Origin: Achromobacter deleyi
GTDB lineage: Bacteria; Pseudomonadota; Gammaproteobacteria; Burkholderiales; Burkholderiaceae_B
Length of the DNA stretch: 64,000 bases
Direction of reading: 5' to 3'
Assembly (NCBI RefSeq): GCF_016127315.1
Contig: NZ_CP065997.1
Location: 1,798,001-1,862,000, forward strand
A model generated the notes under the pieces. It ran no database searches. It saw nothing but the letters and a program-made list of their open reading frames with translations, and was not told where the DNA came from. A program made the translations under genes and the position numbers. Each line of letters opens with the position of its first letter. Within the stretch, counting starts at the first letter, position 1. This document shows positions 31,602 to 36,130 of the stretch, piece by piece.

Positions 31602-32378
31602 ATGGCCCAAGCTTTTGTCGCGTTGTCCGCCTGGCAGGTCATGCTGGCGGGCCTGCTGTTCTTCGGCGGCATCTACCTGCTTTTCGGCGCGGCCACCTGG
31701 CTGCTGACCCAGCACATCCTGCCGGCGCTGGGCATCGGCCGGCCGCTCGATCCGCGGCCGCTGGCGCCGGGCCAGTTGCGCCGCGAGTTCACGCAGTCGG
31801 GCGTGTCGATCCTGCTGTTCGGCACCGGCATGATCTTTCCCTGGGGCCTGCTGCAGCTGGGCTGGGCGCACCTGGATCCGGATGCCAGCTGGCAGAAAAT
31901 CACGCTGGAGATCCTGGCCCTGGTGGCCTGGAACGACGTGCATTTCTGGATCAACCACCGGCTGCTGCACACCAAGCTGCTGCGCCGTTTCCACCTGCCG
32001 CACCACCGCTCGGTGGTGACCACGCCGTTCTCGACCTACAGCTTCCATCCGATCGAGGCGCTGATGCTGGGCAACGTCATCATGCTGCCGATGGTGGTGC
32101 ATGATTTCAGCTTCTGGTCGCTGGCGTCGGTGCCGCTGTTCAGCCTGTTCTTCAACTGCATCGGCCACGCCAACTACGATTTCTTCCCCAACGTGTCGTA
32201 TTCGCACTGGTTCGCCGCCAGCCGCCGGCATCACCTGCACCATGCCTGCTACCACGGCAATTTCGGCTTCCAGTTCACCTTCATGGACCGACTGTTCCGC
32301 ACCCGCCTCAAGGCCGAGGCGGCGACGTCCCAGCTGGAGGCTTTCCGGCAGCGAGAATCGCTTGGCGGACGGGCTTAG
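31602..32378 (+). CDS. Sterol desaturase/fatty acid hydroxylase family protein (cassette gene 1)
   Basis: 258 residues, a membrane di-iron oxygenase. It has two N-terminal membrane pairs and the histidine clusters HFWINHRLLH, HLPHHRS and RRHHLHHACYHGNFG that bind the iron pair. Family members hydroxylate or desaturate sterols, sphingoid bases, fatty acids or carotenoids. It is the first gene of a tight four-gene unit: the desaturase downstream overlaps its end by 17 bp. A bacterial sterol substrate is unlikely; a fatty-acyl chain is my inference. Confidence 0.85.
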   Translation: MAQAFVALSAWQVMLAGLLFFGGIYLLFGAATWLLTQHILPALGIGRPLDPRPLAPGQLRREFTQSGVSILLFGTGMIFPWGLLQLGWAHLDPDASWQKITLEILALVAWNDVHFWINHRLLHTKLLRRFHLPHHRSVVTTPFSTYSFHPIEALMLGNVIMLPMVVHDFSFWSLASVPLFSLFFNCIGHANYDFFPNVSYSHWFAASRRHHLHHACYHGNFGFQFTFMDRLFRTRLKAEAATSQLEAFRQRESLGGRA

Positions 32379-33270
32379 CAAGCGGCGCCGGCTGCCCGCG
32401 CTGCGCAACCGGCGCGATTGGCAGAGCCTGGCCTACCTGGCCGCGCTGCCCGCCCTGGCGGCGTGGCAGTGGCTGCACGGCTTCTGGTGGCCGCTGTACG
32501 CGCTGATGCTGTTCCTGACGCTGGGCATCGGCGTGATCCACCACAACCACACGCACATCCGCATGTGGCATGGCCGCTGGAGCAACCGTGCCACCGACTT
32601 CTGGATCACGTTGTTGCAGGGGCATCCCACCTTCGTGTTCTATCCGGCGCACGTGGCCAACCATCACCGCTTCAAGCACGGCGCGCGCGACGTGGCGCGC
32701 ACCTATCGCTTCGGCGGCGACACCAATCACCTGTGGGGCTACCTGATCCACCCGGCGCAGGCCGTGTGGGTGCTGTATCCGCTGTTCTTCGCCTGGCTCG
32801 GGCGGCTGCGCCGGCATTGGCCGGGCGCGTGGCGCTACTGCATGTGCCAGTACGGCGCCTGGCTGGGGCTGTGGGGCGGCCTGCTGGCGATCAATCCGGT
32901 CAAGGCGCTGGTGTTCGTCATCATTCCGCAACTGCATGGCCTGCACTGGCTGCTGGCCACCAACTACCTGCAGCACGCGCACGCCGATGGCGGGCCGCGC
33001 GCCGTGGCGGGCCTGAACTATGCCCGCAATTTCGAAGGACTGGTCAATCCGCTGCTGTTCAACATCGGCCTGCATACCGCGCACCACGAGAGCCCGCGCG
33101 CGCACTGGTCCGAACTGACCCGGTTGCATCGCGACCACTACCGGGCCCGCGTGACGCCCGCGCTGAACGAAGGCGGCCTGACGCCGTACATGTTCCGCGT
33201 GTTCGTGCTGGGCACCTTCCTGCCGCGCTTTCGCAGCCGTTCCTGTATGGCGCCCGAGCACGTGCGCTAG
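32362..33270 (+). CDS. Fatty acid desaturase-type protein (cassette gene 2)
   Basis: 302 residues if it starts at the TTG at 32362, which overlaps the previous gene by 17 bp; no ATG or GTG occurs before the first membrane helix. It has the three histidine boxes of membrane fatty acid desaturases, HHNHTHIRMWH, HVANHHRFKH and HTAHHESPRAHW, with membrane pairs between. Likely to introduce a double bond or hydroxyl into an acyl chain. The ketoacyl synthase fusion gene follows after 35 bp. Confidence 0.82.
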   Translation: MADGLSKRRRLPALRNRRDWQSLAYLAALPALAAWQWLHGFWWPLYALMLFLTLGIGVIHHNHTHIRMWHGRWSNRATDFWITLLQGHPTFVFYPAHVANHHRFKHGARDVARTYRFGGDTNHLWGYLIHPAQAVWVLYPLFFAWLGRLRRHWPGAWRYCMCQYGAWLGLWGGLLAINPVKALVFVIIPQLHGLHWLLATNYLQHAHADGGPRAVAGLNYARNFEGLVNPLLFNIGLHTAHHESPRAHWSELTRLHRDHYRARVTPALNEGGLTPYMFRVFVLGTFLPRFRSRSCMAPEHVR

Positions 33271-33305
33271 CGCCGCAACCCCATACCTGCCACTAGAGAC
33301 CCGCC

Positions 33306-35237
33306 ATGCCTATCGCGTTCAATCGTGTCTACCTGGAAAGCGCCGGCTATTTCATGCCGGGCGAACCCGTGTCCAACGAGGCCATGGACAGCTACATCGC
33401 GCCGCTGAACCGCATGTCCAGCCGCATCAAGAGCCGCATCCTGGCCGAGAACGGCATCAAGCAGCGCTACTACGCGATCGATGCCGAGGGTTCCACCGTC
33501 TTCACCAATGCGCAGCTGGCCGCCAACGCCATCCGCGATTGCCTGCGGCGCAACGATGGCGACCTCGCGGACGTGTCGCTGCTGACCAGCGGCTCGTCGG
33601 GCGGCGACGCGCTGATGCCGGGCTTCGCCAATATGATCCAGGGCGAGCTGGCCGCGCATCCGATGGAGACGCTGTCGGTGCACGGCATCTGTGCCGCGGG
33701 CGTGTCGGCGATCCAGGTGGCGGCGCAGGGCGTCGAGATGGGCGGCCACGCCAGTGCGCTGGCGGTGGCGGCGGAACTGCCGTCGCGCCTGTTCAAGCGC
33801 TCGCGCTTTGCCGCGCGCGGCTACGACGCCGACTTCGACGCGCATTTCCTGCGCTGGATGCTGTCCGATGGCGCCGGCGCGCTGTTGCTGGGACGCGGCG
33901 GCCGGCCGCTGCCGGGCGCGTCCCAGGGCGTGCGCCTGCGCCTGAAGTGGGTGCACCAGCGGTCGTTCTCGGGCGACTATCCGGTCTGCATGCAGCTGGG
34001 CCTGTCGGCCGACCGCCAGAAGGGCCACCTGGACTATCCGTCGTGGAACGAGGCCGAGGCCGATGGCGCGCTGTCGCTGCGCCAGGACATCCGCCTGCTG
34101 CCGCACCTGTTCGACATCGGCATCCACGAGTACGCCAAGCTGGTGCGCGACGGTTGGCTGGATCCGGACCAGGTGGATCATTTCCTGTGCCACTACTCGT
34201 CCGAGAAATTCATTCCGGTGGTCGAGGACCTGATGGAGAAGGCTGGCCTGGTGATCCCGCGCGAGCGCTGGTTCAGCAATCTGGCCTGGCGCGGCAACAC
34301 CGGCGCGGCGTCGATCCTCATCATGCTGGCCGAGTTCCTGGAAACGCGCGAGATCAAGCCGGGCGAGCAGATCTTCTGCTACATCCCCGAGTCGGGCCGC
34401 TTCATGGCGGCCTACATGCTGCTGGAAGCCGAGGCGGCGCACGACGCCGCGCCGTCGGTCGCCGTCGGCGCCACGCCAGCCGTGGCCGGGCGCGAGGACG
34501 CGCACAGCGCCGATGCCGACGCCATCGCGCCGCCGCACGATCCGGACATGGCGCCGCAGGGCCTGGGCCAGCTGCTGACCGAACTGGCGGCGATCTGGCA
34601 CGACTACCGCTCGCGCGTCTGGCGCACGCCGGTGGTGCGGCGCCTGCGCAACCGCCGCTTCGAGACCGCCGATTACCTGAACTGGATGGAGAACTGGATT
34701 CCGCAGGTGCGCGAGGGCAGCAAGTGGATGCGCGAAGGCGCGGCCTCGCTGACCGAGCAGTACCAGCCGCTGGCCGCGCTGATCGACATGCACGCCGGCG
34801 AGGAGCAGAACGACTTCCAGATCCTGTTCCAGGACTACCGCACGGCCGGCGGCGCCATCGACAACATCGACGCGCTGCGCCGCAACCCCGGCGGCGAGGC
34901 GCTCAACGCCTATCTGCACAGCCTGGCCGCCACGCGCGACCCGATCGGCCTGCTGGGCGCCATCTACATCATCGAGGGCACCGGCCAGCGCATCGTGCCG
35001 GCGCTGCTGCCGTTGCTGAAGGCCAGCCTGAAGCTGCCGCCGGACGCCTTCCGCTTCCTGGAATACCATGGCCACAACGACGAGAACCACCTGGCGCGCT
35101 GGCTGACCGCGGTGGAACTGGCGCTGGACTGCGACGAGGACGGCCGCGCCGAGCAGCGCATCGTCGACACCGCGCGCCGCACCGCCGCGCTGTACCTGAT
35201 GCAGTTTCATCACGTGATGGAGGATGACGCCGCATGA
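33306..35237 (+). CDS. Ketoacyl synthase III fused to a haem-oxygenase-like di-iron domain (cassette gene 3)
   Basis: 643 residues. About 1-385 form a thiolase fold of the ketoacyl-ACP synthase III type with the Cys-His-Asn triad in place: Cys129 (HGICAAG), His296 (CHYSSEKF) and Asn331 (WRGNTGAAS). A Pro/Ala/Asp-rich linker (about 388-420) leads to a helical C-terminal domain like PqqC/UndA-type di-iron oxidases: HAGEEQND (His496, Glu499/500), IIEGTG (Glu557) and EYHGHNDENH (Glu586, His588, Asp592, His595). One enzyme may thus condense and one oxidatively modify or cleave an acyl chain. Its stop overlaps the next start (ATGA). Confidence 0.8.
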   Translation: MPIAFNRVYLESAGYFMPGEPVSNEAMDSYIAPLNRMSSRIKSRILAENGIKQRYYAIDAEGSTVFTNAQLAANAIRDCLRRNDGDLADVSLLTSGSSGGDALMPGFANMIQGELAAHPMETLSVHGICAAGVSAIQVAAQGVEMGGHASALAVAAELPSRLFKRSRFAARGYDADFDAHFLRWMLSDGAGALLLGRGGRPLPGASQGVRLRLKWVHQRSFSGDYPVCMQLGLSADRQKGHLDYPSWNEAEADGALSLRQDIRLLPHLFDIGIHEYAKLVRDGWLDPDQVDHFLCHYSSEKFIPVVEDLMEKAGLVIPRERWFSNLAWRGNTGAASILIMLAEFLETREIKPGEQIFCYIPESGRFMAAYMLLEAEAAHDAAPSVAVGATPAVAGREDAHSADADAIAPPHDPDMAPQGLGQLLTELAAIWHDYRSRVWRTPVVRRLRNRRFETADYLNWMENWIPQVREGSKWMREGAASLTEQYQPLAALIDMHAGEEQNDFQILFQDYRTAGGAIDNIDALRRNPGGEALNAYLHSLAATRDPIGLLGAIYIIEGTGQRIVPALLPLLKASLKLPPDAFRFLEYHGHNDENHLARWLTAVELALDCDEDGRAEQRIVDTARRTAALYLMQFHHVMEDDAA

Positions 35238-36130
35238 ACAAGGAACCCGAATTCCTTGCCAAGGGCCACGATCCCGCCGATCCGAGCCCGTGGCTGGCGC
35301 TGTACCTGGACCGCAGCACGCCGCTGCCGGACAAGGTCAAGAAGGCCTGGCTGACCGATTCGAGCTGCGGCTCGCGCCAGTACCTGCTGCCGTTCCTGCG
35401 GCCGCTGGCGCGCGCCTTCATCATCCTGATCCAGGTCATCAAGACCTTCCTGCCGCGCCGCTGGTCGCATTCGCGGCTGCTGCACCGCATCCTGGCGTGG
35501 GGCCTGAAGCGCTTCGTGTCGCCCGAGGCCAACTGGCTGATCCTGCGGCATTTCCACCTGGGCGCGCAGATCCTGGCGTTCATCGCGGCCAATTCGCCGG
35601 TGCGCGTGGCCACCACGCCGCTCGAGCCGATGGAGATCGACGATCTCAAGGACGAACTGTTCGTCAAGCACGACCTGAACCTGTTCAACTTCGTGATCCG
35701 GCTGAACCAGGCGCTGCGCGATGCCGGCGTGGAGATGCACGCGCCCGAGCGCGTGGATTTCTCGATGATCCGCGATCCGGGCCTCAAGCTCGAGGACATG
35801 CCGCAGGGCAAGCTGAATTTCCTCGACCTGCAGAGCGCCATCGAACTGTTCACGCCGCTGTATCAGCTGATGCTGACCGACAACGACTTCTGGCGCGCGG
35901 CCAATTCGCTGCAGCTGGACGAGACCATCGGCATCTACGCGGCCAAGCTGCTGGGCGCGCCGCAGCACCTGATCCTGGTCAACAACAGCCATCCGCTGGT
36001 GCCGATGTCGACGCTGCGCGCCGGCTACCGCCTGGTGCTGCACGGCCTGTCGACCGAGATGCTGCACAGCCTGCTGATGGAGATGCGCGACGCGCAGCAG
36101 GGCGGCGAGCCGCCCGCGCCGATCGCCTGA
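35234..36130 (+). CDS. Uncharacterised protein of the acyl-modification cassette (gene 4)
   Basis: 298 residues; I do not recognise a family. There is no signal peptide. A hydrophobic, basic-flanked stretch at about 55-75 (FLRPLARAFIILIQVIKTFL) could bind a membrane, followed by a mostly helical, charged region with conserved-looking LRHFHLGAQILAF and DETIGIYAAKLLGAP. It is translationally coupled to the ketoacyl-synthase fusion through a 4-base overlap, so it most likely acts in the same pathway, perhaps as an oxidase partner or lipid-binding subunit. Confidence 0.75.
   Translation: MNKEPEFLAKGHDPADPSPWLALYLDRSTPLPDKVKKAWLTDSSCGSRQYLLPFLRPLARAFIILIQVIKTFLPRRWSHSRLLHRILAWGLKRFVSPEANWLILRHFHLGAQILAFIAANSPVRVATTPLEPMEIDDLKDELFVKHDLNLFNFVIRLNQALRDAGVEMHAPERVDFSMIRDPGLKLEDMPQGKLNFLDLQSAIELFTPLYQLMLTDNDFWRAANSLQLDETIGIYAAKLLGAPQHLILVNNSHPLVPMSTLRAGYRLVLHGLSTEMLHSLLMEMRDAQQGGEPPAPIA

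Follow-up and report, generated by a model that had tools for sequence, protein, structure and literature searches.

A ketosynthase, iron oxidase and DUF6999 gene unit in Achromobacter deleyi and other bacteria, and the fatty-acyl pathway it may encode

What might be produced by four tightly packed genes of Achromobacter deleyi, and how many of these genes belong together? The genes are located in a 64,000-nucleotide stretch of contig NZ_CP065997.1 (hereafter the window) and encode a membrane fatty-acid hydroxylase (FAH), a membrane fatty-acid desaturase (DES), a ketosynthase (KS) fused to a haem-oxygenase-like iron oxidase (HDO), and a protein of the family DUF6999 (Table 1). An initial annotation, made from the sequence alone, had read them as a four-gene cassette for a fatty-acyl product. 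On recheck, its four genes and their coordinates proved to be exact, as did the 17-bp overlap between FAH and DES, the 35-bp gap between DES and the fusion gene, and the 4-bp overlap of the latter with the DUF6999 gene. The closest named relatives of the encoded proteins are from Achromobacter.

Table 1. Features of the A. deleyi locus (positions in the window).
Feature	Position	Strand	Description
FAH	31602..32378	+	258 aa; membrane fatty-acid hydroxylase family (PF04116); accessory tailoring gene
DES	32362..33270	+	about 302 aa; membrane fatty-acid desaturase family (PF00487); accessory tailoring gene
KS-HDO fusion	33306..35237	+	643 aa; residues 1 to about 378 StlD/DarB-like ketosynthase III, about 406 to 643 haem-oxygenase-like iron oxidase
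HDO domain of KS-HDO fusion	34521..35234	+	PF14518 (Haem_oxygenas_2)
DUF6999 gene	35234..36130	+	298 aa; PF22523; all-helical model; third core gene

Gene content and integrity of the locus

FAH matched its Pfam family (FA_hydroxylase) with 73.9 bits (cut-off 31) and contains the histidine boxes HFWINH, HLPHH, and HHLHH. DES, for which a TTG start codon at 32362 was inferred, matched FA_desaturase with 80.7 bits (cut-off 29.7) and carries the boxes HHNHTH, HVANHH, and HTAHH. Together with the hydrophobic segments, these motifs fit two membrane iron enzymes, as annotated initially. The fusion protein matched PF08541 (ACP_syn_III_C) and the HDO family, both above the cut-off, and its catalytic triad (C129-H296-N331) is invariant in all 36 aligned cassette KSs, in agreement with the earlier reading as a fusion of a KS III having an intact triad with an iron oxidase. 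The hydropathy limit was exceeded by no segment of the fusion protein and by one segment of the DUF6999 protein.

The four genes are real and intact. Comparison of each of them with its counterparts in Bordetella genomosp. 1, an Achromobacter, and Variovorax yielded dN/dS values of 0.20–0.34 in 12 out of 12 cases, which indicates that all four are under constraint. Because of these values and the synteny across phyla described below, the arrangement is considered to be more than chance. A dapA-like gene and a Na+/H+ antiporter gene next to the cassette were also considered as members of the unit and were rejected, since the flanks vary between genera among the matches listed. A 648-aa open frame runs antisense to KS-HDO (window 33267-35213, minus strand). 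At a G+C content of 65%, long antisense frames arise frequently, and there is no sign that this one is a gene.

Extent and distribution of the conserved core

A scan with a DUF6999 alignment, using one genome per species, confirmed at least 512 DUF6999-encoding stretches, the best 80 of which were used for comparison of loci. These best 80 of at least 512 loci span Pseudomonadota, Bacillota, Myxococcota, and Acidobacteriota and include Sphingomonadales, Sneathiella, Paenibacillus, Cohnella, Myxococcaceae, Acidobacteria, Steroidobacter, Luteimonas, Lysobacter, Variovorax, Achromobacter, Bordetella, and others; one record titled Bacillus (L054) shares 79% identity with the Sphingomonas query, and its title may be wrong. 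An HDO homolog is present near DUF6999 (within about 3 kb) in 78 of the 80 loci, and in the remaining two DUF6999 starts less than 0.5 kb from a contig end. A KS was found on the same 78 loci, in a few of them truncated by the contig end. KS and HDO form one protein in 55 of these 78 loci and are encoded separately in 23, with the split genes overlapping by 4 bp in 12 of the 14 Sphingomonadales loci listed. When the possible DUF6999 start closest to the HDO stop is considered, the two genes overlap by 4 bp in 35 out of 77 loci and by 8 bp in 22. A looser arrangement was observed for L050, with the KS about 8 kb away, and for L086, L092, and L098, with HDO and DUF6999 0.7–3 kb apart.

Homologs of FAH and DES were present on only a minority of the best 80 of at least 512 loci, namely on 14 (once on the opposite strand) and 11, respectively. 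Among 13 Burkholderiales genomes with the cassette (see below), FAH and/or DES lie upstream of the KS in all 13 and both do so in ten. The conserved unit consists of KS, HDO, and DUF6999 and is smaller than the four-gene form, hydroxylase and desaturase being lineage-specific extras. Both membrane enzymes being optional, the four genes together are the form that the three-gene core takes in one lineage. What remains of the originally proposed four-gene cassette is a co-inherited unit that combines a condensing enzyme with several iron oxidases, whereas its extent has to be reduced to three conserved genes.

At the level of genomes, the distribution of the unit is patchy. DUF6999 was found in 6 out of 274 genomes of the class (in one as fragments only), 13 out of 300 of the order, and 9 out of 398 of the phylum; Caulobacter vibrioides, included as a control, carries a DUF6999 gene as well. 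Among the 300 Burkholderiales genomes, the same 13, from nine genera, contained DUF6999 together with HDO and KS of the cassette type; these relatives are not independent samples, though the association also crosses phyla. In the 13 genomes the HDO profile scored 312–340 bits, against a maximum of 94 bits in all others. The KS profile scored 524–577 bits in the 13 and 369–410 bits in a further six, its remaining matches not exceeding 86 bits (the three profile searches are assumed to cover the identical 300 genomes, as the identifiers agree). Among 196 genomes of the order of a Sphingomonas-like genome (G772), three contained a full-length DUF6999, a remnant was detected in addition, and the cassette HDO was found in the three genomes with the full-length protein (343–347 bits; next match 93 bits). 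The check for a lack of co-occurrence, suggested with the initial annotation, did not refute the latter.

Close to the DUF6999 matches of the surveyed genomes, KS and HDO lie beside DUF6999 at 17 of 19 loci. One exception, L025, belongs to genome G074, in which DUF6999 is intact and the profile searches found neither a cassette KS nor a cassette HDO; the other, L027, belongs to G052, where, as in G1067, DUF6999 is a remnant. Weaker HDO matches (44–94 bits) in 41 of the 300 Burkholderiales genomes were rejected as cassette members, since they belong to another operon. In 17 such loci (L135-L151), no separate KS or DUF6999 match was found within about 1.5 kb, and the Pfam scan of one of them identified this second operon as composed of an AMP-binding ligase, a PF14518 HDO, a short-chain dehydrogenase, and a protein of about 210 aa with weak TPR matches.

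The 801-kb plasmid pTHAF3_a of Pseudoalteromonas sp. THAF3 (L168) carries separate genes for a KS, an "iron-containing redox enzyme", as it is named in the record, and a DUF6999 protein. This set is preceded by a gene for a 185-aa protein without Pfam match, and a 186-aa gene is found at the same place in L041.

Relationship of the core proteins to known systems

Among solved structures, the best match of the KS was StlD (5gk0; 221 bits, E 6.6e-64), followed by a FabH-type enzyme with 40 bits. The PQS biosynthetic enzyme structure 3h76, which we take to be PqsD, reached 27 bits; because of this weak match, the label "PQB biosynthetic", under which the KS appears in two records among the matches listed, was dropped. 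The NCBI model for StlD/DarB (NF005293) scored 331 bits for the window KS, below the cut-off of 450, and 322–413 bits for six cassette KSs including that of the window, against 593 and 599 bits for two DarB-type KSs. Since the score lies below the cut-off, the reaction of the cassette KS may have drifted. Across 37 alignment rows of HDO- and DarA-linked KSs, with two long-branch rows omitted, 33 positions including the triad show no variation. In a quick tree of 39 KSs, calculated without bootstrap from 34 chosen cassette KSs and five of the six DarB-type KSs (L167 was left out; L026 and L041 are long branches), one branch separates HDO-linked from DarA-linked enzymes (SH-aLRT 99). The cassette KSs are accordingly placed as the sister clade to StlD and DarB. 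All alignments of the analysis consist of chosen rows (A2, 52; A3, 42; A4, 36). A plasmid of Streptomyces sp. NBC_00008 (L169) also encodes a KS, with about 39% identity to that of the window, amid genes for two acyl carrier proteins, a P450, an FAD monooxygenase, FabF, and FabG; this is apparently another pathway using a KS of the same broad family.

The six Burkholderiales KSs scoring 369–410 bits adjoin a DarA-like gene, with a gene order resembling the dar cluster of Azoarcus as given in the available part of PMC3949708; by eye, a small gene resembling those for ACPs is present in four of these stretches as well. A DarA profile built from the six DarA-like proteins of these same genomes, which have a DarB-type KS and no DUF6999, matched all six and none of the 13 cassette genomes, that of the window included. 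Hence, in these 19 genomes a StlD/DarB-like KS occurs together with DarA or with HDO and DUF6999, and in no case with both sets, so that one broad KS family has two alternative partners. One of the DarA-like proteins yielded no match in Pfam (E 0.01), NCBIfam (E 1e-20), or the PDB (E 1). The role of DarA is unsure, as the accessible passages of two papers name it differently, namely "DAR-aromatase" (PMC3949708) and "dialkylresorcinol condensing enzyme" (PMC9606717). The cassette resembles the dar and stilbene clusters in its nearest KS family, the shared triad, and the 33 invariant positions, and two host acyl thioesters would be the expected substrates of its KS as well. It differs from dar clusters in that its KS falls below the curated cut-off, that no DarA was found in the cassette genomes, and that the KS has HDO and DUF6999 as its neighbors. 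Cyanobacterial dialkylresorcinol clusters containing CylC, to go by the available text of PMC8406957, likewise pair a DarB homolog with a non-haem dimetal enzyme, but they possess DarA and use CylC halogenases rather than HDO and DUF6999.

The HDO domain has a haem-oxygenase-like fold and eight invariant His/Glu/Asp residues. Its helix 2 reads H-x3-E-x2-D at the position where the structure 3dde shows H-x3-E-x2-H, and since D98 takes the place of the histidine, one metal ligand may be an aspartate. This residue and the fusion to a ketosynthase distinguish the window HDO from haem-oxygenase-like diiron oxidases such as UndA, CADD, HrmI, and others.

The DUF6999 protein is a full-length member of its family (PF22523; 441.6 bits, cut-off 27, profile positions 1-275 of 275), a family without described function and for which no paper was found in the open-access literature searched. 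A confident AlphaFold2 model (pLDDT 90.8) is all-helical. No sequence match and no clear or significant fold match were obtained in the PDB, and profile comparison revealed no relation to the HDO or DarA profiles. Many polar residues are invariant in 52 out of 52 sequences (R105, H106, H146, D147, D229, E230, H270, E275, and others). By its appearance, the protein is a putative enzyme. The association with KS and HDO provides DUF6999 with a first functional context.

A possible pathway and its alternatives

The three-gene core very probably represents a dedicated, co-inherited fatty-acyl pathway, and the action on host fatty-acyl chains suggested by the initial annotation is regarded as probable. 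With the core being kept in Achromobacter, Bordetella, Variovorax, Lysobacter relatives, Sphingomonas, Paenibacillus, Myxococcus, and Acidobacteria, it probably makes something useful that has been overlooked. DarB-family ketosynthases reportedly form 1,3-cyclohexanediones and resorcinols (title of Fuchs et al. 2013). Moreover, darA and darB expressed in a foreign host gave a dialkylresorcinol, according to the available part of PMC3992019. Because of this chemistry and the product formed in the foreign host, we propose a DarB-like condensation of two fatty-acyl thioesters, followed by oxidation by the HDO in DarA's stead and a step involving DUF6999, and tentatively regard this as the best explanation of the unit. 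The same finding accounts for the lack of an acyl carrier and a reductase (an ACP gene was not recognized in the window cassette), which had initially been taken as a sign that a host fatty-acyl chain is modified; with a KS of StlD/DarB-like nature, it does not point to simple chain modification.

Starting from the observed three-gene association, KS-HDO fusion, KS clade, HDO fold, and lack of DarA matches in the 13 Burkholderiales genomes, we infer the following chemistry. The KS would join two fatty-acyl thioesters from host fatty-acid synthesis, as DarB and StlD do, most likely to a (carboxylated) alkyl-cyclohexane-1,3-dione. The HDO, either fused or encoded by an adjacent, overlapping gene, would take over this product directly and oxidize it with O2, by aromatization, hydroxylation, or oxidative decarboxylation, thereby replacing the DarA of dialkylresorcinol clusters. 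DUF6999 would carry out a further step or bind and hold the product. Owing to the fusion, a single recombinant protein would suffice to test directly in which order the first two steps proceed. Chemistry of the cyclohexanedione/resorcinol type, argued here by analogy, is a real possibility, though short of an even chance. The same grade applies to the wider suggestion of an unrecognised class of bacterial lipid biosynthesis in at least four phyla, in which a DarB-like KS would pass its product on to the iron oxidase fused to it, whose metal site is altered, and DUF6999, as an all-helical enzyme without solved relative, would complete a lipid for which the literature searched gave no description. 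Several points stand against the proposal and keep it tentative: the KS score below the StlD/DarB cut-off, the unsure role of DarA, the amino-acid preference ascribed to HDOs, and the orphan DUF6999 of G074. The parts are of known kinds; as far as searched, their combination, the exchange of partners, and the link to DUF6999 are new. In line with the initial annotation, no description of the KS-HDO-DUF6999 cassette or of a pathway with this gene set was found in the open-access literature searched, which comprised few subscription papers and no bioRxiv preprints and hence is no proof.

Alternatively, the KS might catalyze a non-cyclizing head-to-head Claisen condensation like OleA, and the HDO might act on the resulting beta-keto acid in the manner of UndA, leading to a ketone, an alkene, or a shortened hydrocarbon. 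We consider this unlikely, since StlD exceeds every other solved KS by about 180 bits and no OleBCD-like set was recognized by eye among the neighbor families recurring on at least three of 79 loci. (This neighbor count lacks L094, whose DUF6999 was missed by the gene caller, as was the DES of L116; families were labelled mostly by eye and in some cases by Pfam scan.) The products named initially, i.e., a terminal alkene, ketone, beta-lactone, or head-group-free lipid, received no specific support, and the first three are less likely.

Somewhat more doubtful still is a pathway in which the KS forms a pyrone, beta-keto ester, or other acyl condensate, the HDO hydroxylates it, and the product acts as a diffusible signal and not as a lipid of the membrane. 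The available text of PMC9606717 reports dialkylresorcinols to be signals in bacteria, and a TetR-like regulator (by eye) lies near the core on 10 of the 79 loci, nine of them from Sphingomonadales. However, no regulator or receptor common to the lineages was seen by eye among the recurring neighbors, and the acyltransferase, transporter, and desaturase genes by the core point to long membrane chains. Finally, an HDO acting on an amino acid or amine, with the KS acylating it by a PqsD-like logic to an N-containing product, would agree with the apparent specialization of HDOs for amino-acid substrates described in the available part of PMC13185094 and with the "PQB biosynthetic" record names, but is improbable in view of 27 bits for the PQS biosynthetic enzyme against 221 for StlD and of the neighbors, among which no amino-acid gene recurs across lineages and an aminotransferase-like family lies within 5 kb on just 4 of 79 loci, three of them from Achromobacter (by eye).

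In the DarB-like pathway preferred here, membrane hydroxylases and desaturases would modify the alkyl chains, lineage by lineage. Since FAH and DES occur on few of the best 80 loci and other accessory genes are found elsewhere, the membrane oxygenase genes are tailoring genes with which the pathway dispenses in other organisms. A different PF00487 desaturase is encoded between HDO and DUF6999 in three loci and, as a fragment at the contig end, in two more; these belong to some, not all, Myxococcaceae and to an acidobacterium. On eight loci of the neighbor count, the core is accompanied by an MFS transporter family, presumably of the LplT type, and one scanned fusion of this transporter also carries acyltransferase and AMP-binding domains, suggesting that the product, or the chains from which it is built, form part of the membrane. 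A family of alpha/beta hydrolases adjoins the core on three loci of the same count.
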